Position numbers and translations under genes: made by a program. This document shows positions 18,637 through 32,764 of a DNA stretch of 64,000 nt, piece by piece. Source of the stretch: Eubacterium sp. (lineage in GTDB: Bacteria > Bacillota > Clostridia > Peptostreptococcales > Anaerovoracaceae). Each line of letters starts with the position of its first letter. Positions within the stretch are counted from its first letter, which is position 1. The notes under the pieces are model-generated. The model saw nothing but the letters and a program-made list of their open reading frames with translations, had not been told where the DNA came from and ran no database searches. Location: NCBI GenBank assembly GCA_017533915.1, contig JAFWHX010000014.1:43836-107835 (forward strand), given 5' to 3'.

Positions 18637-20640
18637 ATGGACGAGATCATCAAAGGCAGTAGCTTCAGCAGTTACTGGTACACCGACATCAGGGAGATCG
18701 TAACGATCAAAGACATGCTTGCCGGAAGCGCGGATCTTTACCGCGCTAATCCTGCATTCTGGGTCAAGAAGAAAAAAGGCTCTCCGTATGAAGCTGTAAA
18801 TTACGAGCTTCTTCAGCATGACGTGAACGCGCTCGGAACTATGCTTTGCCATATGGGACTAAAAGGCGAGAGGATCGCTGTGATGGGGCAGAATTCATAT
18901 GAGTGGATAGTCTCTTATCTTTCTGTCATCAACGGTACCGGCATCGTAGTACCGATCGATAAAGAGCTGACAGGTCCTGAGATCGGAAACCTGCTCCGCG
19001 CAGGCGACGCGCATACTATCTTCTGCACCAGGCAGGAATGCAAGAAGCTCGCCGGCCTGCCTGAGATAGACCGCCTTATCGTAATGGAATTCTACGGGGA
19101 CAGGACCGACATACACGAGCAGCTCGAGCCTGTCACAGATGACAATTTTGACAGGAACAAATATATGAATATGATCCTTGGCGATGCCGCTTCAGGCAGC
19201 GATGCCGAAACAGTCACGGCTGATCTCAAGGACAGCGAACAGCGTAAGGTAGAAGTCTACAGCTGGCGCGAGCTTCTGGCATGGGGCGAGCAGTTACTGA
19301 CAGGAAAATTCAGCGTCGATCCGGCTAAGGAAGCAGATGTTGAAGCCAGCGCGGCAAAAGCTGGCGATCCGCACAGCGGCCTTGGCGAAGAAGATCGTGT
19401 TCCTGACAGATCATTCCTGGATGCGGAGATAGATCCTGATGCGCTTGCGGTCATTCTCTTCACATCCGGCACGACCGGGAACCCTAAGGGCGTAATGCTG
19501 AGCCACAGGAATATAACGAGCAACATCATGGACGTCTGCAGGATCTGCCAGGTATACCAGAGCGATAAGACTTTGTCGCTGCTGCCTATACATCACACGT
19601 ATGAATGCACGCTCGGAATGCTGCTCGTGCTCTACCGTGGCGCGAGCACGGCTTTCTGCGAAGGCTTCAAGTATATCAGCCAGAACATGAAAGAAGCTCA
19701 GAACACATTCATCATCGTGGTGCCGCGCGTGCTCGAGCTCGTGTACGACAGGATCCAGAAGGGCATCGAAAAGCAGGGCAAAGAGAAGACTTTCCGCCGC
19801 GCTATGAAAGTCAACAAAGCGCTGAGAAAAGTCGGCATCAACATCAGCAGGACGATATTCAAATCTGTGATCGACGGCCTCGGAGGGAAGCTCCGCGTAG
19901 TGATCACCGGCGCCGCCGCGCTCAACCCGAATATCTTCCGGGCGTTTGAGGATTTTGGCATCATGGTGCTCCAGGGCTACGGCATGACTGAGTGCACACC
20001 GCTCATCTCCGGTACTCCCGGAAGTGCGCCTGATGAGAGGTACCGCAAAGCGGGCTCAGTCGGGACGACTGTAGACAAGGGCGAGATAAAGATCATAAAC
20101 AAAGATGAGAACGGAATAGGAGAGGTGCTCTTCCGCGGGCCGAACGTCATGCTCGGCTACTACAACATGCCGGAAGAGACCGCAGATACGATAGAGCCGG
20201 ACGGATTCATGCATACAGGCGATCTGGGTTTTGTTGACAAAGAGGGATGGCTGTATCTGACGGGCCGCGCAAAGAATGTAATCGTCACGAAGACAGGCGA
20301 GAACGTGTACCCGGAGGAGATCGAGGATGAGATCAGAAGCGATCCTGCGATCGAAGAGTGCATGGTCTTCCCGTATAACGACCACGGCGAAGAGACGGTC
20401 GGTATCCAGATCCTCCCGGCGATGGAAAATATCACTGAGCAGCTGGGCTGCGAGCCTTCCGAGGCAGAGCTGAACGAGTACTTCAAAAAACTCGTCACCG
20501 ATTTCAATCAGAATCTCGCGGTATACAAGAGGATCCGCGCAGTATTCGTACGGAAAGAAGATTTCATCCGCACTACTACGAAAAAGATACGCAGGCAGGA
20601 CAACCCGCTGACGCCGGAAACGATCATAGGATATAAATAG
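18637..20640 (+). CDS. Long-chain acyl-CoA synthetase (AMP-forming, FadD15-like)
   Basis: A 667-residue ANL-superfamily ligase expected to activate fatty acids to acyl-CoA through an acyl-adenylate. The AMP-binding loop FTSGTTGNPKG is at 275-285, the adenine-binding YGMTE motif follows (LQGYGMTECTPL), and GYYNMPEET...GDLG and the C-terminal lysine region (TKKIRRQDN) are present. The segment about 150-260 is longer and more acidic than in relatives and contains an Ala-rich run. The N-terminal half lies immediately behind an extended -10 promoter. The acetolactate decarboxylase gene follows after 32 bases. Chain-length preference cannot be told. Confidence 0.92.
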   Translation: MDEIIKGSSFSSYWYTDIREIVTIKDMLAGSADLYRANPAFWVKKKKGSPYEAVNYELLQHDVNALGTMLCHMGLKGERIAVMGQNSYEWIVSYLSVINGTGIVVPIDKELTGPEIGNLLRAGDAHTIFCTRQECKKLAGLPEIDRLIVMEFYGDRTDIHEQLEPVTDDNFDRNKYMNMILGDAASGSDAETVTADLKDSEQRKVEVYSWRELLAWGEQLLTGKFSVDPAKEADVEASAAKAGDPHSGLGEEDRVPDRSFLDAEIDPDALAVILFTSGTTGNPKGVMLSHRNITSNIMDVCRICQVYQSDKTLSLLPIHHTYECTLGMLLVLYRGASTAFCEGFKYISQNMKEAQNTFIIVVPRVLELVYDRIQKGIEKQGKEKTFRRAMKVNKALRKVGINISRTIFKSVIDGLGGKLRVVITGAAALNPNIFRAFEDFGIMVLQGYGMTECTPLISGTPGSAPDERYRKAGSVGTTVDKGEIKIINKDENGIGEVLFRGPNVMLGYYNMPEETADTIEPDGFMHTGDLGFVDKEGWLYLTGRAKNVIVTKTGENVYPEEIEDEIRSDPAIEECMVFPYNDHGEETVGIQILPAMENITEQLGCEPSEAELNEYFKKLVTDFNQNLAVYKRIRAVFVRKEDFIRTTTKKIRRQDNPLTPETIIGYK

Positions 20641-24449: not shown

Positions 24450-24477
24450 AAAAGGCAGCCGTGTGTCCCAGCTGCCT
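24450..24477 (-). terminator. Probable terminator of the nifJ operon
   Basis: On the minus strand AGGCAGC and GCTGCCT form a 7-bp stem around an 11-base loop, followed by TTTC. It lies 42 bases past the nifJ stop and overlaps the ribosome-site region of the MscS gene; the T-run is short. Confidence 0.55.
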
Positions 24478-24518: not shown

Positions 24519-27500
24519 TTAGTTCTCTTCCATATGTTTATAATGAGCGTATCTCACGTCTGCGTCTTTGGCGCCGATCGAGAACAGCTCCTCTGCGTTC
24601 TTCGGGAACGTTCTCTTCAAGGCACTGTATCTCGTCTCTCCGTCGAGGAAGTCCTCATACGCCATCATCGGCTGTTTCGAATCGACCACAAGCGGCTGTT
24701 CTTTCCTCGGATCGTATCTGTAAAGCAGCCAGTATCCGGAGTCGACCGCCCTCTTCATCTCTTCCTGGACTTTGTTCATTCCATTCCTGATGCCGTGAGC
24801 CGTACATGGTGTATATGCGATGATGACGCTCGGTCCGTCGTATTCTTCAGCCTCTCGGAGGGCTTTGATAAGCTGGTTCGGATCTGCGCCCATAGCGACC
24901 TGCGCCACGTATACGTTGCCGTAGCTCATCATGATTCCGCCGAGGTCCATTTTTCTGCTCTTCTTACCGCTGGAAGCGAACTGCGCGACAGCTCCGATAG
25001 GCGTTGCCTTACTGCTCTGTCCGCCTGTGTTCGAATATACTTCAGTATCGATGACGAATACATTCACATTCTCACCGCTCGCGATAACGTGCGCCAGTCC
25101 GCCGAATCCGATATCATAAGCCCATCCGTCGCCGCCGTACATCCAGAACGTCTTCTTCGCCAGCTGGTCACGGTGTTCCAGTATTGCCTTCGCGTCGTCG
25201 CTGCCATCTTTCTCGAGAATACCGCAAAGTATGTCTGCTGTCTCTCTTGATCCATCAAAATCATCAAAGGCTTCAAGGTAGTTCTCGCATGCTTCTTTCA
25301 GAGAGATCTCCCTCTCTTCCTGTGATGACTCCGGAGCCTTTGCCTCTTCATTCTTGATCTCAGCGCCGGCTTTTTCAAGAAGCTCTTCTACCTGTGCCTT
25401 CACGGCTTCTCTCTGCTGCTTTACTGAAAGCACCATTCCCAGACACAGCTCTGCGTTATTCTCAAACAGTGAATTCGTCCATGCAGGACCGAATCCCCTG
25501 TCGTTTACCGTATATGGGATGCCGGGCATCGGAGCGCCCCAGGCCTGTGAGCACCCAGTTCCGTTCGCCCAGTATACACGTTCTCCGAAGAGCTGTGTCA
25601 TGAGCTTTGCATAAGGTGTCTCGCCGCATCCTGCGCACGCCGCCGAGAATTCAACGAGCGGCTGTCTGAACTGGCTTCCCTTCACCGACCAGCGGTTGAA
25701 CAGATCTCCTTTGCTCTTTGTAGTGAGAAGATAGTTCCATCTCTCCTTGCTTTCTTCTTTAAGATCTGCCGATACCATCTCCAGGGCATGTGTCGGGCAT
25801 ACCTCGGCGCAGCTGCCGCAGCTCGTACAGTCAAACTCTGACACTGCCATCGTGAAGTGCAGACCCTTTGCAGGGCCGTTCGTCTTCATCATCTCGATGC
25901 CGGCAGGAGCTTTTTCCATTTCCTCATCTGAAAGCAGATATGGACGGATCACCGCATGCGGGCAGACAAGTGCACAGCGGTTGCACTGAACACACTTGGA
26001 GGCGTCCCACTTAGGGATCTTCACCGCGATCCCGCGCTTTTCATATGCGGTAAGCCCCATGTCGATATTACCATTTTCATATCCCCTGAACGAACTTACC
26101 GGAAGGTCGTCGCCCTTCTGCGCGTTGAGCGGATTAAGGATCCTCCTGACTACGTCAGGAAGCGGGCATTCTCCATCAGAACAGCTTTCACAGCTTCCTT
26201 TGCATGAGCTGTCAGAAGCCCCGGCCTTCGACGCATCCGAACTGCCTTCGCCGCAGAGCTCAGGTAATTTCACAGCACCGCCCTTTGCTGCCGCCGCGAT
26301 CCCGTTCGCTCCGTATTTTTTGTCAGGATCTTCTTCAAGCGCCGCATTCAGGATCCTGATCGCGGCGTTCGGTGTATCAGGGATCTCAGCCCATGAAGCC
26401 GGTACGTCGATCTTCACTATTTCTTTAGCTCCGGCATCGATCGCGGCGATGTTCTGAGCGATGACGTCGTCTCCTTTAGCATAATAAGTCGTGCGTGCCG
26501 CATCCTTCATCTTGTCGAGCGCATCCTCAAGAGGGATCAGGTCTGATACCGCAAAGAACGCTGCCTGAAGCACTGTATTCGTATGGCTTCCAAGTCCGAG
26601 CCTCAAAGCGATCTTGGTCGCGTCTATGGTGTAGAACCGTATCTTCTTCAATGCAAGGATCCGCTTTACATCGTCAGGAAGGTTTTGTTCCAGCTCCTCC
26701 GGCTTCCACTGACAGTTCAGCAGGAAGATGCCCCCTGTCCTGAGCTCGCTGACCATGTCGTACTGACGGAGGAAGCTCTGGTTATGGCAGGCCACGAACT
26801 CAGCCTTTTTTACAAGATAGCTTCCGCGTATCTGCTCACGCGAGAATCGGAGATTCGACTTGGTCACGCCGAACGATTTTTTAGCGTCGTATTCAAAGTA
26901 TGCCTGCGCGTAGATGTTCGCGGCTTCTGCGAGGATGTGAACAGTGTTTTTGTTGGCGCCGACTGTTCCGTCTCCGCCCAGCCCCCAGAACTTGCAGCGG
27001 AACACCTTATCGCCGACTCCCTTGATATGCGGAGCATCGAGCGAGAGGTGCGTGACATCGTCTTTGATGCCGATCGTAAAGCCGTCTATCGGTGAATCGC
27101 TCTCGAGATTCCGGAACGTCGCGATGATCTGGTCAGGATCTGTATCCTTGGATGACAGACCGTAGCGTCCGCCGATTATCCTCATCATGCGGCCTGTTTT
27201 TATTGCTGCTGTGCAGACATCCTTATACAGCGGCTCGCCTTCTGCTCCCATCTCCTTGCAGCGGTCAAGCACCGCGACGCGCTTTACTGTCTCCGGTATC
27301 GCCTCCATGAGCTTCTCCGCTGAGAACGGCCTGAATAAATGCACCTGAACAAAGCCGACTTTCTTTCCATGTGCGTTCAGATAGTCGACTGCGAGGTGCG
27401 CGACACCTGTAACTGAGCCCATCGCGATGATCACGTCAGTCGCCTCCGGGTCTCCGTAATAATTGAACAATCTATAGTCGCGGCCTGTGAGGTCGCTTAC

Positions 27501-28259
27501 TTTCTTCATATATTTTTCAACGATGGCCGGCACCGCGTCGTAGAAGCCGTTGTTGGCTTCGCGGACCTGGAAGTACACATCAGGATTCTGTACGGTATTC
27601 CTGAGGACCGGATGTTCAGGGTTCAGCGCGCTCGCCTTGAAGTCTGCGAGTGCTTCCTTATCCATCATCTCAACAAGAGCATGCTCGTCTATCTGCTCGA
27701 TAGTAGCGACTTCATGGCTGGTGCGGAAGCCGTCAAAGAAATGCATGAACGGGACTTTGCTCTCGACTGCGGCAAGGTGCGCCACGCCTGCGAGGTCCAT
27801 TACCTCCTGTACAGAACCCGTGCACATCATCGCCAGGCCGCACGCTCTGCAGTCCATGACATCGCTCTGGTCTCCGAAGATACTCATGCCGTGCGTTCCT
27901 ACCGTACGCGCAGCAACATGCATGACCGCCGGAAGCCTCTCTCCCGCTATCCTGTGAAGGACCGGGATCATCAGCATCAGGCCTTGGCTTGACGTAAATG
28001 TAGTCGCGAGAGTACCGGCCTGAAGCGCGCCGTGCACCGCGCCGATCGCGCCGGCTTCACTCTGCATTTCCTGCAGCGTCACCCTCTGACCGAACATGTT
28101 CTTCCTGCCGTTCGCCGACCATACATCCGTGTGCTCAGCCATAGGCGATGAAGGCGTGATCGGATAGATCGCGGCGATCTCCGTGAAGTTGTACGCGACA
28201 TGCGCTGCGGCCTCATTGCCGTCCATTGTTACAAGTTTCTTCTTCTCGTTTTCAGACAT
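24519..28259 (-). CDS. nifJ: Pyruvate:ferredoxin (flavodoxin) oxidoreductase with extra cysteine-rich insert
   Basis: A 1246-residue single-chain enzyme that converts pyruvate and CoA to acetyl-CoA and CO2 with reduced ferredoxin. Domain I starts with the pyrimidine-binding YPITPSSPMAE; two [4Fe-4S] ferredoxin clusters are at C756/759/762/766 and C811/814/817/821; the TPP-binding domain has GDGWAYDIGFGG and SNTGGQSSK. Family members normally have about 1170-1190 residues. The extra length lies at about 640-710 and contains C669, C686, C690, C693 and C698, not part of the known clusters. The spacer to the upstream fusion gene is 71 bases with no terminator, so it may belong to the T-box operon, although it could have its own promoter. 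A different 2-oxoacid is possible. Confidence 0.93.
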   Translation of the reverse strand: MSENEKKKLVTMDGNEAAAHVAYNFTEIAAIYPITPSSPMAEHTDVWSANGRKNMFGQRVTLQEMQSEAGAIGAVHGALQAGTLATTFTSSQGLMLMIPVLHRIAGERLPAVMHVAARTVGTHGMSIFGDQSDVMDCRACGLAMMCTGSVQEVMDLAGVAHLAAVESKVPFMHFFDGFRTSHEVATIEQIDEHALVEMMDKEALADFKASALNPEHPVLRNTVQNPDVYFQVREANNGFYDAVPAIVEKYMKKVSDLTGRDYRLFNYYGDPEATDVIIAMGSVTGVAHLAVDYLNAHGKKVGFVQVHLFRPFSAEKLMEAIPETVKRVAVLDRCKEMGAEGEPLYKDVCTAAIKTGRMMRIIGGRYGLSSKDTDPDQIIATFRNLESDSPIDGFTIGIKDDVTHLSLDAPHIKGVGDKVFRCKFWGLGGDGTVGANKNTVHILAEAANIYAQAYFEYDAKKSFGVTKSNLRFSREQIRGSYLVKKAEFVACHNQSFLRQYDMVSELRTGGIFLLNCQWKPEELEQNLPDDVKRILALKKIRFYTIDATKIALRLGLGSHTNTVLQAAFFAVSDLIPLEDALDKMKDAARTTYYAKGDDVIAQNIAAIDAGAKEIVKIDVPASWAEIPDTPNAAIRILNAALEEDPDKKYGANGIAAAAKGGAVKLPELCGEGSSDASKAGASDSSCKGSCESCSDGECPLPDVVRRILNPLNAQKGDDLPVSSFRGYENGNIDMGLTAYEKRGIAVKIPKWDASKCVQCNRCALVCPHAVIRPYLLSDEEMEKAPAGIEMMKTNGPAKGLHFTMAVSEFDCTSCGSCAEVCPTHALEMVSADLKEESKERWNYLLTTKSKGDLFNRWSVKGSQFRQPLVEFSAACAGCGETPYAKLMTQLFGERVYWANGTGCSQAWGAPMPGIPYTVNDRGFGPAWTNSLFENNAELCLGMVLSVKQQREAVKAQVEELLEKAGAEIKNEEAKAPESSQEEREISLKEACENYLEAFDDFDGSRETADILCGILEKDGSDDAKAILEHRDQLAKKTFWMYGGDGWAYDIGFGGLAHVIASGENVNVFVIDTEVYSNTGGQSSKATPIGAVAQFASSGKKSRKMDLGGIMMSYGNVYVAQVAMGADPNQLIKALREAEEYDGPSVIIAYTPCTAHGIRNGMNKVQEEMKRAVDSGYWLLYRYDPRKEQPLVVDSKQPMMAYEDFLDGETRYSALKRTFPKNAEELFSIGAKDADVRYAHYKHMEEN

Positions 28260-28330
28260 TGTTTAACTCCTGTATCAAATACCTGTATTAAATATTCAGA
28301 TCATCGTTTTGCCGCACGCGTTCCTGAAGG

Positions 28331-30814
28331 TCAGTCAGTGAGCCCCAGCTCTTTGGCGAATTGCTCTCTCATCTTATATTTCAGGATCTTTCCGGCGGCA
28401 TTCATCGGAAATGAATCGACGAAGCGGATGTACTTAGGGACTTTGTGGCGGGCCAGGCGGCCTACGATGAAGTCATGCATTTCTTCCTCGGTCAAAGTCT
28501 CCCCTTCTTTAAGTATTATACACACTAATGCCTCTTCGCCGTACTTTTTATCCGGAACTCCGATGACCTGTACGTCCTGAACAGCAGGATGTGTATAAAT
28601 AAACTCTTCTATCTCTTTCGGATATATGTTCTCGCCGCCACGGATGATCATGTCTTTCAGACGTCCCGTGATGCGGTAGTTCCCGTTCTCGTCTTTGCAG
28701 GCCAGATCTCCTGAATGAAGCCAGCCGTCTGCGTCGATCGTTTCGTTCGTGGCTTCAGGCATCTTGTAATAACCCTTCATCTGGTTGTAGCCCTTTGCGC
28801 AGAACTCGCCGTTTACTCCCGGCGGGACTTCTTTTCCTGTCTCGGGATCGATCACTTTGCAGCGCACATGTGGAAAGTCGTATCCTACAGTCTCTGTTCG
28901 GACATCGAGAGGGTCCGTCCATGCAGACATAGTATTTCCCGGCGCCGTTTCAGTCTGGCCGTAGACGCTTACTATTCCTGTCATGTTCATCTCGTCAGGC
29001 TGCGCCGCGCGCTTCATTAACTCAGGCGGACAGCCGGACCCTGCCATGATGCCGGTCCTCATATATGAGAAATCCGTCTTTCTGTAATCCGGATGGTTGA
29101 ACATGGCGATAAACATCGTAGGCACGCCGTTAAAGCAGGTGATCTTCTCCTGATTGATACATGCAAGTGAAGATTTTGCCGAGAAATACGGCATCGGGCA
29201 CATCGTGGCGCCGTGCGTCATCGAGCTCGTCATCGAGAGCACCATGCCGAAGCAGTGGAACATAGGCACCTGGATCATCATACGGTCTGCTGTGGAAAGT
29301 CCCATCCGGTCGCCGATGCACTTGCCGTTATTGACGACGTTATAGTGTGTCAGCATCACGCCTTTAGGGAAGCCTGTCGTTCCTGACGTGTACTGCATGT
29401 TGCAGACGTCATCAGGCTGTACCTGGGCTGCAAGGCGTGCCGTCTCCTCAGGCGGCACCATATCTGCACGGTCGAGCGCCTCTTCAAACGTAAGGCATCC
29501 CGGCTGACTGAATCCTGACGTGATCACGTTTCTCAGGAACGGGAGCCGCTTACAGTGCAGCGGAGCACCCGGCTTGCTTGTTTTGATCTCCGGGCACAGC
29601 TCATTTATGATAGCTGCATAATCGCTGTCGAGCGCGTGGTCGATCATGACGAGTGTATGTGTGTCAGACTGACGGAGCAGATATTCCGCCTCATGGATCT
29701 TGTATGCCGTGTTCATGGTGACGAGCACAGCGCCTATCCTGCAGCACGCCCAGAACGTGATGTACCACGCCGGGACATTCGTGCACCAGACGGTCACTTT
29801 GTAGCCCGGCTTTACACCCATCGAAACGAGCGCTCGTGCGAACCTGTCGACGTCCTCGCGGAATTCCGAGTATGTCCTGGTATAGTCAAGGGTCGTATAT
29901 TTGAAGCAGTACTGGTCCGGGAACTCCTGTGCCATACGGTCGAGCACCTGCGGGAACGTGAGGTCGATCAGCTCGTCCTTCTTCCATACGTATCTGCCTG
30001 TGCCGTCGTGGTTGTAGTACAGGCCGTTCTCGCGTGCCCTTGACCTGTTGTATCTGCTCATATAATTAACAAAATACGGGAGGATTATGTCAAGGTCCTG
30101 GAGGTCTTCCAGCCACGCCGGCTTCCATTCAAGTGATACAAAGCCTGCGTAGTCCACGCTCTCGAGAGCACGCATCACCTCGTCCACAGGGAAGTCGCCC
30201 TCGCCGATGAGCTCGAACTGGTCTTTGCTGCTCGAGTCTCTCATATGGACGTGCTTGACGTATGCTCCAAGGTTCGTGATAGTCTCCGCCGGGCTCTCTC
30301 CGAAGTCGCGGTACGGGTGGTGCACATCCCAGAGCACGGCGATCTGATCGCATGCAAAGCGATCGAGCAGTTCGCGGAGCTGTTTTGTCGACGAGAAGAT
30401 CCCGCACGTCTTGATCAAAATCGTCACGCCAAGGTCGTCTGCCGCCGGGATTAGCTTTCTGAGGTTCTCTTCGGCTGCGCCGTCCTCGCCGCCGCTCGCC
30501 CACACTGCCACGTACGGCGACCTCATGTCAGACGCGAGTTTCATCTCAGCGCGGATGGCGTCGAGCGCCTCATCATCTGCTTCCGCTATGTCGGCCGCGC
30601 TGTCGAAACATGGAATACAGAGCTTTTTCTCACAAAGAGTCCTGTAAGATGAAGCCACTGAATACCTGTGGAACGGCCCGCCTTTATCGGTGAGCTCCGG
30701 GTTCGCCGAAACATGGTAGATCTCGATCCCGCTGAATTCCATCTCGTTCGCGGTATCGATCATATCCTGCCAGGAAAGCCCCGGCCATCCTCTTGTAGAA
30801 AACGAAAGTTTCAT
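28331..30814 (-). CDS. Fusion of sugar-phosphate isomerase-like TIM barrel and acyl-CoA ligase
   Basis: An 827-residue two-domain protein. Residues 1 to about 255 form a xylose-isomerase-like TIM barrel of the sugar-phosphate isomerase/epimerase (AP endonuclease 2) family, with candidate metal ligands E31, D163, H165/H166, H188/H190 and E229. Residues about 280-827 are a complete AMP-forming acyl-CoA ligase: TSGTTGFPKG at 476-485, YGQTE, a GYYKMPEAT motif, SGDL and the catalytic C-terminal lysine in PMNAAGKILKYKM. The ligase half resembles medium-chain or branched-chain acyl-CoA ligases. The frame is continuous, with no stop or frameshift at the join. GGAGG precedes the ATG. It lies 47 bases after the LeuA-like gene, which places it under the T-box. 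The barrel's substrate is unknown. Confidence 0.9.
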   Translation of the reverse strand: MKLSFSTRGWPGLSWQDMIDTANEMEFSGIEIYHVSANPELTDKGGPFHRYSVASSYRTLCEKKLCIPCFDSAADIAEADDEALDAIRAEMKLASDMRSPYVAVWASGGEDGAAEENLRKLIPAADDLGVTILIKTCGIFSSTKQLRELLDRFACDQIAVLWDVHHPYRDFGESPAETITNLGAYVKHVHMRDSSSKDQFELIGEGDFPVDEVMRALESVDYAGFVSLEWKPAWLEDLQDLDIILPYFVNYMSRYNRSRARENGLYYNHDGTGRYVWKKDELIDLTFPQVLDRMAQEFPDQYCFKYTTLDYTRTYSEFREDVDRFARALVSMGVKPGYKVTVWCTNVPAWYITFWACCRIGAVLVTMNTAYKIHEAEYLLRQSDTHTLVMIDHALDSDYAAIINELCPEIKTSKPGAPLHCKRLPFLRNVITSGFSQPGCLTFEEALDRADMVPPEETARLAAQVQPDDVCNMQYTSGTTGFPKGVMLTHYNVVNNGKCIGDRMGLSTADRMMIQVPMFHCFGMVLSMTSSMTHGATMCPMPYFSAKSSLACINQEKITCFNGVPTMFIAMFNHPDYRKTDFSYMRTGIMAGSGCPPELMKRAAQPDEMNMTGIVSVYGQTETAPGNTMSAWTDPLDVRTETVGYDFPHVRCKVIDPETGKEVPPGVNGEFCAKGYNQMKGYYKMPEATNETIDADGWLHSGDLACKDENGNYRITGRLKDMIIRGGENIYPKEIEEFIYTHPAVQDVQVIGVPDKKYGEEALVCIILKEGETLTEEEMHDFIVGRLARHKVPKYIRFVDSFPMNAAGKILKYKMREQFAKELGLTD

Positions 30815-30861
30815 ATTATATCCTCCATGCTGGCAGGGATCTGTCCCCGCTCAGCAGACTG

Positions 30862-32274
30862 CTATTCTCCTTCTTCGTAGACGATCTTGTTTACGGCGCT
30901 GACATAGGCGTCAATCGATGAGCCTATTATGTCTGTGGATATGCCGCGGCCGGAATAGACTTTACCGTCGGCTGCGCGGAGACGTACCACTGTCTCGCCC
31001 ATTGCTTCGCGGCCTTCTGTTACCGCCTGCATCTCGAACTCATCGAGCTCGTAGTGATGCCCTATTATCTGTTCTATCGCGAGGAATGACGCGTCGACCG
31101 GGCCGTCTCCTACCGCGAGGCCGTCAAGTGTCTGACCGTCCTTCTCCATCCTGAGGTGGCACGTTGCGGTGATGGTGTTTCCTGAGTTTATAACAAAATC
31201 ATTAAGCTTGTATGTCGGCGGGACCTGCATCGCAGCAGATGCTACGATAGCATCGAGCTCTTTTGCTCCGACCGATTCTTTCTTTGACGCGATCCTTGCA
31301 AAAGCTTCGTATACGTTCACCGCGTCTTCTTCCGAAAGGTCGTACCCGATCTCAGCCGCCGCCTTCGTGACTGCCGTCATATCGTCATGTATAGTGAGCA
31401 CCACTCCGTGCTCATCGTGAACGGCACTGTCATATGTGGATGTGCCGGTGCCCTTCTCTTCGCATATCCTTCTTATCTGGCTGACGATCCTCTTAAGCTC
31501 TGTGTCGTGGACATCGCATGAGACTCCGTTCTCCATCCCTCTTACTTTCAGAATATGCACAAGCCCTTCGAGAGAAGATGTGAATGTGCCGCATGCAGAG
31601 ACTTTTACCTCGTCTGCCCCTGCGAGCACGGCGGATACCGCACATGCGTCAGCAAGTGAAAGCTCATTTGATATCATGACTCCGAGCTTCACGTTTTCCG
31701 GGATGTCTGCCCTCGCATTCTTTACGCGCTCATAAAATTCATCCGGAAGAAGGTTCCCCGCTGTATCGCAGAGAGTAACTGCTGTAGCTCCTGCCTCTAC
31801 TGCCGCTTCTATCGTCTCTTTCAGGAAATCCGCTTCACTCCTTCCCGCGTCCCACGCAACGAACTCTACGTCGCTGCAGACTGCCTTAGCATCTGCGGTA
31901 AGCTTTGCGATCTTCTTTACGATCTGTGAAGGCTTCATCCTGGAGATGTATTCCATCTGGACGGTACTTACCGGAGCGACAACCTGCAGGCGCGGCTTTT
32001 TTGCTTCTTTCAGGGCGTTCCATGTGATCTTGACGGTATCTTTTTCCGTAAGGACGAGTGGGACCGCGACAGCGCTTCCCTTCACAGCGCTCGCTATCGA
32101 TTTGATCAGGAGACTGTCTGTCCTTTTGTCTTTGATCGCCGCTGTCTCGATGACCTGTATGCCGACCCTGTCAAGCAGCTTGGCGACTTCGATCTTCTCC
32201 CTGAAAGAGAGATCATATCCGCCGGTCTTTGCTGGCATCGACATCGTAATGTCACTCAGGTAAATGCTTCTCAT
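30862..32274 (-). CDS. LeuA-like DRE-TIM protein without the usual catalytic motifs
   Basis: A 470-residue relative of 2-isopropylmalate/citramalate synthases. The N-terminal TIM barrel and the C-terminal LeuA allosteric (dimer) domain (about 350-465) are recognisable. However, the RDG motif reads LSDIT (D8 kept, Arg and Gly lost) and the metal-binding HxHND reads MISNE at 200-204, so both histidines are missing; the ERAGN motif is also absent. The protein therefore probably does not make isopropylmalate by the standard mechanism. I recall similar divergent proteins in other clostridia annotated as 2-isopropylmalate synthase. It follows a T-box leader with an AAAGGAG ribosome site just after the terminator. 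A regulatory or altered-substrate role is possible. Confidence 0.85.
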   Translation of the reverse strand: MRSIYLSDITMSMPAKTGGYDLSFREKIEVAKLLDRVGIQVIETAAIKDKRTDSLLIKSIASAVKGSAVAVPLVLTEKDTVKITWNALKEAKKPRLQVVAPVSTVQMEYISRMKPSQIVKKIAKLTADAKAVCSDVEFVAWDAGRSEADFLKETIEAAVEAGATAVTLCDTAGNLLPDEFYERVKNARADIPENVKLGVMISNELSLADACAVSAVLAGADEVKVSACGTFTSSLEGLVHILKVRGMENGVSCDVHDTELKRIVSQIRRICEEKGTGTSTYDSAVHDEHGVVLTIHDDMTAVTKAAAEIGYDLSEEDAVNVYEAFARIASKKESVGAKELDAIVASAAMQVPPTYKLNDFVINSGNTITATCHLRMEKDGQTLDGLAVGDGPVDASFLAIEQIIGHHYELDEFEMQAVTEGREAMGETVVRLRAADGKVYSGRGISTDIIGSSIDAYVSAVNKIVYEEGE

Positions 32275-32289
32275 ATTTCTTTCTCCTTT

Positions 32290-32630
32290 AAAAAATCCCT
32301 GAAGCCGCTCTCGCAGCCTCAGGGACGAAAATCATATTCCGCGGTACCACCCTGATTCCTTCCTTACGCAGTCCTGGCTTTGATCGCCCTGACTCCCGGG
32401 AAGACATCTCTCGGACTCCATCAAGTCCATGGCCTGTAACGGGGCCTGCCGGATCACACTACTTGACTTGTCTCCGATCCATACATCGCATATTGACGAT
32501 ACTGGATACGGCCTGCTTTCGCATGACCTGCTCAGGAGCGAGATGCATGTGACGCGTGGTACCGGCTCGCACCGCCCGCCGGCTCTCTGAAACGCTTACG
32601 CCACAGCAATTCTCCGTCATCGCATTTTGG
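32290..32630 (-). ncRNA. T-box riboswitch (probably leucine or isoleucine specific)
   Basis: A leader that senses uncharged tRNA and controls the operon starting at 32274. The T-box core GGTGGTACCGCGG is at about 32339-32351, the distal Stem I with AGAGAGCC and GGTGCGA-type loop at 32561-32587, and the terminator (CCCTGAAG stem, TTTTTT) at 32290-32325. A lower Stem I helix GGAG/CTCC places the specifier loop at about 32539-32547, where the minus strand reads TGCATCTCG. CTC (Leu, followed by a purine) at 32540-32542 is the best specifier; ATC (Ile) at 32542-32544 is the alternative. Both fit a branched-chain amino-acid operon. Confidence 0.93.
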
Positions 32631-32764
32631 TATGTATTAAATTACTATATCGTGAATATTAAACCATAAAACGCGGGCTCTTGTCAACATAAATATTGAT
32701 CCCGGCCTGTTTTTTCCGCCGTCAGAGTAATTCCATGTTCAGAGCTGGCCGGTCCGCATGATCA

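Follow-up and report, generated by a model that had tools for sequence, protein, structure and literature searches.

The operon described here lies on the reverse strand of a 64,000-nucleotide stretch of Eubacterium sp. DNA (assembly GCA_017533915.1, contig JAFWHX010000014.1, positions 43,836 to 107,835), hereafter the window, and consists of a T-box leader and three genes encoding a LeuA-like protein, a fusion of an AP_endonuc_2 TIM barrel with an AMP-forming acyl-CoA ligase, and a NifJ-type 2-oxoacid:ferredoxin oxidoreductase (OFOR). Our results indicate that this operon probably serves a synthesis of leucine that bypasses isopropylmalate, with the LeuA-like protein as a pseudoenzyme. The leader, its leucine specifier codon, the gene order, the loss of catalytic motifs, a variant oxidoreductase pocket and the failure to find LeuA or LeuC come from the sequence, and from them we infer the substrates, the direction of the reaction and the regulatory role. 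A preliminary description of this DNA had proposed a tRNA-controlled salvage of leucine or isoleucine from a branched acid; the route from isovalerate to leucine is supported here by the specifier, the lack of a detectable LeuA, the NifJ pocket and sister modules at other loci, whereas the isoleucine option is not.

The LeuA-like protein

The product of the first gene (Table 1) combines an HMGL barrel (PF00682) with a regulatory LeuA_dimer domain (PF08502; 104.9 bits, covering positions 4-130 of 131), an architecture in common with LeuA, the 2-isopropylmalate synthase (IPMS). It differs from LeuA in that the catalytic motifs are gone and that it scores below every LeuA equivalog cut-off listed (283.4 against 532, and 257.7 against 598.7). 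The motifs RDGEQ, HxH, GERAGN and HxxGIH are all absent from this protein and from its 53 named relatives (54/54), and all four are present in the 11 true LeuA that were aligned, one having HxxGMH; these 11 come from 27 true-LeuA loci, the other 16 not having been aligned. For four relatives (L086, L089, L091 and L093) the alignment covers the protein from residue 21-22 onwards; RDGEQ is likewise absent from their N-termini, which were read separately. The name LeuA-like given in the preliminary description thus agrees with the domains, but the motif loss had been missed. The member at locus L095 retains RD of the first motif and one H of the second (TLRDLEQ, HFKDN), and as the most ancestral-looking of the group it could help to date when catalysis was lost.

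The leucine-binding site of IPMS lies in the regulatory domain, at the interface of the dimer, according to the available part of PMC11057210. A PDB sequence search with the C-terminal domain alone gave no match at E 0.01. In HisZ-HisG, which belongs to different families, a dead paralogue of an enzyme acts as a regulatory subunit, and the LeuA-like protein may do likewise. With some reserve, we favour a role of the LeuA-like protein as a leucine-sensing pseudoenzyme with a regulatory function. That it is still an enzyme, performing an altered, metal-free chemistry on an acyl-CoA or a 2-oxoacid, seems to us unlikely, though worth serious consideration, as barrel residues D8, E108, E137, D142, R145 and D170 are invariant in 49 aligned members (an alignment omitting L065, which has an internal stop, and L086, L089, L091 and L093). 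This invariance stands against the loss of the four motifs, the deletion of two loop segments, and an identity to true LeuA (rows taken as such) that is higher in the dimer domain (35-46%) than in the barrel (26-36%).

The ligase fusion and its link to the LeuA-like gene

The ligase fusion directly adjoins the LeuA-like gene on its 3' side in 53 of 53 named loci, and the same order is found in all 12 other loci whose next gene lies within the available sequence, the window included. Conversely, the fusion occurs in none of the 27 true-LeuA loci over their available flanks, some of which hold little sequence past the gene. Among the 53 named loci, the two genes are separated by a median of 2 nt and overlap by 4 nt in 18; the gap in the window is 47. 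Within the order, 13 genomes carry the ligase fusion, with a full LeuA-like gene in seven, fragments in two and none over the available stretch in four. This distribution would look like that expected for an accessory regulatory subunit. Genome G062, one of the last four, has a T-box with a codon read as CUG immediately 5' of the ligase fusion.

As for the AP_endonuc_2 barrel of the fusion, it may be non-catalytic, because the positions that we take to be the usual metal ligands are not strictly kept (in only 27, 29, 37 and 26 of 44 ligases; 10 of the 53 named ligases, cut by contig ends, were left out). Another gene resembling an AMP-forming acyl-CoA ligase, about 29% identical to the fusion, lies near the operon at 18637-20640 on the forward strand of the window.

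The NifJ-type oxidoreductase

The third gene product matches TIGR02176 at 1605.8 bits (cut-off 911.35) and is therefore a member of the NifJ family, sharing the single-chain architecture and the domains of pyruvate:ferredoxin oxidoreductases (PFORs) such as DaPFOR and the Moorella PFOR (6cin). In a tree of 25 NifJ proteins, from which op_L069 (a 270-aa fragment) and hk_L140 (partial) were left out, the operon proteins and a non-adjacent copy of G045 are separated from the rest by a branch with SH-aLRT 100. The genome itself has two nifJ genes, and the second, located elsewhere, is canonical (TGCSSIW motif) and like that of the genus.

The pyruvate pocket of DaPFOR is formed by Leu121, Ala219, Ile843, Asn996 and Met1202, as given in the available part of PMC5020499. 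The operon NifJ differs at the first three of these, with L121 replaced by M in 9/12, A219 by V in 12/12 and I843 by A in 11/11 proteins, N996 being kept in 10/10; the protein of the window has M, V and A and keeps N, and thus does not reproduce the pyruvate pocket. Among 15 other NifJ proteins, L is found in 14/15, A in 12/15 and I in 13/14, the non-adjacent G045 copy being counted here although it has the operon residues at all three positions. The NifJ beside the ligase fusion in G063, which was not used in finding these positions, has M, V and QAW.

The caution expressed in the preliminary description, that the oxidoreductase looked like a pyruvate enzyme, is largely answered by the separate clade and the altered pocket. 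The enzyme could be an ordinary PFOR that merely lies behind leucine genes, as would agree with its TIGR02176 score and with T31 and R114, the ligands of the carboxylate, which 12/12 operon proteins retain. However, the genome encodes a second, canonical NifJ, and a NifJ gene lies 3' of the ligase in eight of the 53 named loci (one of them cut) and in G046, G117, G064 and G266, and 5' of it in G063. Together with the clade and the three pocket changes, on which we based our judgement, this makes an ordinary PFOR improbable.

Genome and genus context

Similarity and profile searches of the genome found no true LeuA of either class, bacterial or yeast-type, nor any LeuC-sized protein of the aconitase family (at most 475 aa, a limit set after the data had been seen); with 96.94% completeness and 21 contigs, the assembly may have missed a gene. 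The only HMGL-family matches are the LeuA-like protein and one of 1154 aa that matches over the C-terminal half of the profile alone, as a pyruvate carboxylase would, the name being our reading. An ilvD was identified by profile, with ilvB, ilvH and ilvC adjoining (ilvB and ilvH recognized by eye), so that the 2-oxoacid of valine could be made, with no visible lengthening to that of leucine. An ilvE-type branched-chain aminotransferase (BCAT) is also encoded; thus, the gene set of reductive carboxylation, that is, acyl-CoA ligase, OFOR and BCAT with LeuA not found, is complete in this genome.

Full-length relatives of the LeuA-like protein were found in 9 of 119 genomes of the family, the present one included, and fragments in three more, a count that leaves a G013 fragment (40% over the dimer domain) unplaced. 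In the order, 7 of 297 genomes carry the protein as judged by profile (E 1e-120). Among the 12 genomes of the genus, eight have a yeast-type LeuA, two have the LeuA-like operon (the present genome and G266) and none has both; the remaining two, G252 and G351, have neither, ordinary bacterial-type LeuA not having been searched there. In G266, a genome in one contig, the same T-box, LeuA-like, ligase and nifJ are found with different flanks. The yeast-type LeuA of G004 and G093 escapes a similarity search with the LeuA-like protein; in G004 it stands with genes read as leuC, leuD and leuB, and in G093 it lies side by side with a LeuC-sized match, a T-box match lying near each. LeuC-sized aconitase-family proteins are present in 7/7 genomes without LeuA-like protein versus 1/9 with it, and the lone exception (G038) has two such pairs, which look like other genes. 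These observations suggest that, within one genus, the leucine pathway has been swapped for a fatty-acid route.

Proposed route, its direction and known counterparts

In the route that we propose, leucine shortage would let uncharged tRNA-Leu accumulate, upon which the T-box would antiterminate. The ligase fusion would then activate isovalerate to isovaleryl-CoA, the variant NifJ would use reduced ferredoxin for its reductive carboxylation to 4-methyl-2-oxopentanoate, and the BCAT, encoded elsewhere in the genome, would convert this into leucine. The LeuA-like protein would bind the ligase and relay leucine feedback, thereby making up for the feedback control that disappeared together with LeuA.

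Rumen methanogens make leucine from isovalerate and isoleucine from 2-methylbutyrate (PMC10658910, available part), and we propose that the same conversions operate here. The present system differs in being a bacterial operon under tRNA control, with a NifJ-type enzyme, a TIM-barrel/ligase fusion and a putative LeuA pseudoenzyme. The oxidoreductase reaction is reversible, and leucine might instead be degraded to isovalerate in the oxidative direction, in a Stickland-type manner; we regard this as very improbable, since a T-box induces its genes upon a shortage of charged tRNA, as fits a biosynthetic role, since neither LeuA nor LeuC was found in the genome, and since AMP-forming ligases drive acyl-CoA formation. 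The precedent for the oxidative direction is PorA of Clostridium sporogenes, which, as far as described in the available part of PMC11271093, handles branched 2-oxoacids and acyl-CoAs, is required for branched acid production and works in degradation; the likeness is by description, not by sequence.

Several observations weigh against the synthesis of leucine by way of a LeuA-like pseudoenzyme and a specialized NifJ. Four of the 13 genomes of the order that have the ligase fusion lack a LeuA-like neighbour, and therefore the pseudoenzyme is not essential to the ligase. Two of the 12 genomes with LeuA-like proteins or fragments (G037 and G112) also have a true LeuA, G063 has one beside its NifJ-ligase pair, and L066 has a second LeuA-type gene (28% identity); the replacement of LeuA by the LeuA-like operon is not strict. 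The NifJ pocket retains N996, no alignment was obtained at M1202, and the two NifJ groups differ at 52 positions by our own criterion, so that the pocket changes are part of a wider split. Furthermore, in 18 of the 60 loci with at least 350 nt upstream, no T-box core was seen in the 500 nt next to the LeuA-like gene.

The T-box leader and its specifier codon

The leader carries all the hallmarks of a T-box, namely Stem I, a specifier codon in register, a UGGN core and a terminator. It shares with the T-boxes of RF00230 a Stem I with the AGAGA bulge, the specifier, the GGGUGGUACCGCG core and a competing terminator, the latter being strong (-26.8 kcal/mol, z -6.96 on folding of 32288-32330). Its score lies below the gathering score of RF00230 (93), for which reason a default Rfam scan of the window lists nothing; the leaders of four relatives, located 5' of the same LeuA-like gene, score 103.6-107.6 bits. 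The UGGU end of the core presumably fits an acceptor end with an A73 discriminator, as in tRNA-Leu. According to the available part of PMC3766115, T-boxes usually control tRNA synthetase, amino acid biosynthesis and transporter genes, and the present one would differ in that its target is a fatty-acid-to-leucine operon.

The preliminary description had left the specifier between CUC (Leu) and AUC (Ile), of which the former stands and the latter falls. We took as the register the triplet one base before the helix that closes the specifier loop, here formed by GGAG (32615-32612) and CUCC (32538-32535). At least 350 nt of upstream sequence is available for 60 of the 62 LeuA-like loci inspected; in 42 of the 60, a T-box core lies no more than 300 nt from the gene. 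The codon in register is CUC or CUG in all 42 leaders, 39 being parsed by a script (27 CUC and 12 CUG) and three, the misparsed L065, L085 and L097, being read by eye from the sequence. The flanking helix varies among leaders (GGAG/CTCC, GGAA/TTCC, GATA/TATC, GGCA/TGCC, ACGG/CCGT) while the codon is constant; the script demands pairing of this helix, and thus helix changes constitute no independent test, but it demands no codon. That the operon serves isoleucine made from 2-methylbutyrate through an AUC specifier is hardly credible and was rejected: an AUC does occur in the specifier loop, and a further OFOR of the genome is preceded by a T-box whose codon was read by eye as Ile, but the AUC of the loop does not stand in register with the helix beside it, none of the related leaders of LeuA-like genes, with their CUC or CUG, has AUC in register, and Ile T-boxes precede a different ligase.

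Sister modules with Ile and Val T-boxes

In other loci, the LeuA-like and ligase genes adjoin two cupin-type ligases, a CbiA-like ATPase, VorABC and a BCAT, the neighbours named VorB and ilvE_II being so called by NCBIfam. A cupin domain is present in both of these ligases, together with a helix-turn-helix match in one. Their first NCBIfam match is MbcS, an acyl-CoA synthetase of Staphylococcus aureus (PMC10026030, available part), at 435.5 and 433.9 bits against a cut-off of 850, and they are thus related to that family without being members, whereas the best match of the leucine-operon ligase is a subfamily other than MbcS. Considering open reading frames (ORFs) with at least 350 nt upstream, a T-box core is found at 15 of 17 ORFs of the first sister ligase, with the specifier AUC (Ile) in 15/15, and at 8 of 17 ORFs of the second, with GUA in seven and GUC in one (Val in 8/8). 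Among eight LeuA-like genomes, the sister ligases (at least 59%) occur in the four without IlvD and not in the four with IlvD, the present one included; therefore, the modules correspond to the gaps of each genome.

Leucine, isoleucine and valine synthesis in many rumen and gut anaerobes depends on a supply of branched-chain fatty acids, and the corresponding genes in Clostridia have so far been hard to name. With the T-box specifiers, substrates can be assigned directly and in a testable way to three ligase families, the TIM-barrel fusion being assigned to isovalerate and the two cupin fusions to 2-methylbutyrate and isobutyrate. We give an even chance to the wider proposal that a dead isopropylmalate synthase has been kept across Clostridia as a leucine-sensing regulatory subunit made together with a TIM-barrel/isovaleryl-CoA ligase, so that the feedback would have outlived its pathway, and that Leu, Ile and Val T-boxes would mark three branched-acid ligases by product. 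In this way, the pseudoenzyme may transfer feedback regulation between pathways. LeuA-like proteins are also easily misread as LeuA, and the classical leucine pathway may be wrongly credited to their carriers. In the literature searched, outside of which most subscription papers lay, we recognized nothing that joins T-boxes with these ligases or describes a LeuA pseudoenzyme.

Fusions of a cupin domain with an AMP-ligase were also seen at L038, L039, L048, L053, L058, L092, L094, L121 and others. Ile or Val T-boxes accompany many of them, and in many of these loci VorABC has a CbiA-like ATPase as its neighbour. Two further T-boxes were noted in the present genome. One of them (G000:C10:96227-96457; L003; L047 8228-8458) has a specifier read by eye as AUC (Ile) and lies 5' of a four-gene OFOR, whose alpha subunit matches PorA_Arch best (470.8 bits, below the cut-off of 550); this enzyme may make 2-oxobutyrate from propionyl-CoA, an option raised by the presence of ilv genes, or may act on 2-methylbutyryl-CoA. 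The other (G000:C1:57374-57575; L002; L046 7375-7576), with UGG (Trp) read by eye and a UGGC core, lies 5' of a TrpB2-type gene (NF009057, 668.7 bits, cut-off 366), which suggests indole salvage under tRNA control.

Operon layout and flanking signals

The coordinates of the operon and its signals are given in Table 1. In agreement with the preliminary description, the three genes lie on one strand with gaps of 47 bases (LeuA-like/ligase) and 71 bases (ligase/nifJ), in neither of which a consensus scan found a promoter or a terminator. The promoter-like element upstream of the leader is not listed by the consensus promoter scan, in which the second hexamer must have A as its second base; similarly, the hairpin just 3' of nifJ is not listed by the terminator scan, which has a loop limit of 8, and on folding the segment 24446-24490 gives -19.6 kcal/mol (z -4.02).

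Table 1. Features of the operon, in coordinates of the window.
Feature	Position	Strand	Remarks
Promoter-like TTGACA-18-TTTAAT, upstream of leader	32658..32687	-	by eye
T-box leader	32318..32629	-	RF00230, 88.6 bits, E 1.1e-19
Specifier codon CUC (Leu)	32540..32542	-	followed by G32539, then helix 32538-32535
T-box core GGGTGGTACCGCG	32340..32352	-	core ends UGGU
Leader terminator hairpin and T-run	32295..32326	-	terminator scan, folding
LeuA-like, putative pseudoenzyme, 470 aa	30862..32274	-	HMGL barrel without IPMS catalytic motifs, intact LeuA_dimer
AP_endonuc_2 TIM barrel and AMP-forming acyl-CoA ligase fusion, 827 aa	28331..30814	-	proposed isovalerate--CoA ligase
NifJ-type 2-oxoacid:ferredoxin oxidoreductase, 1246 aa	24519..28259	-	variant pocket M125, V223, A906; proposed 4-methyl-2-oxopentanoate synthase
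Operon-closing terminator hairpin and T-run, just 3' of nifJ	24450..24476	-	folding

A 69-aa ORF whose start resembles a signal peptide was noted by eye at 32974-32765 on the reverse strand, flanked by a divergent TetR-like gene on one side and by the T-box promoter on the other.

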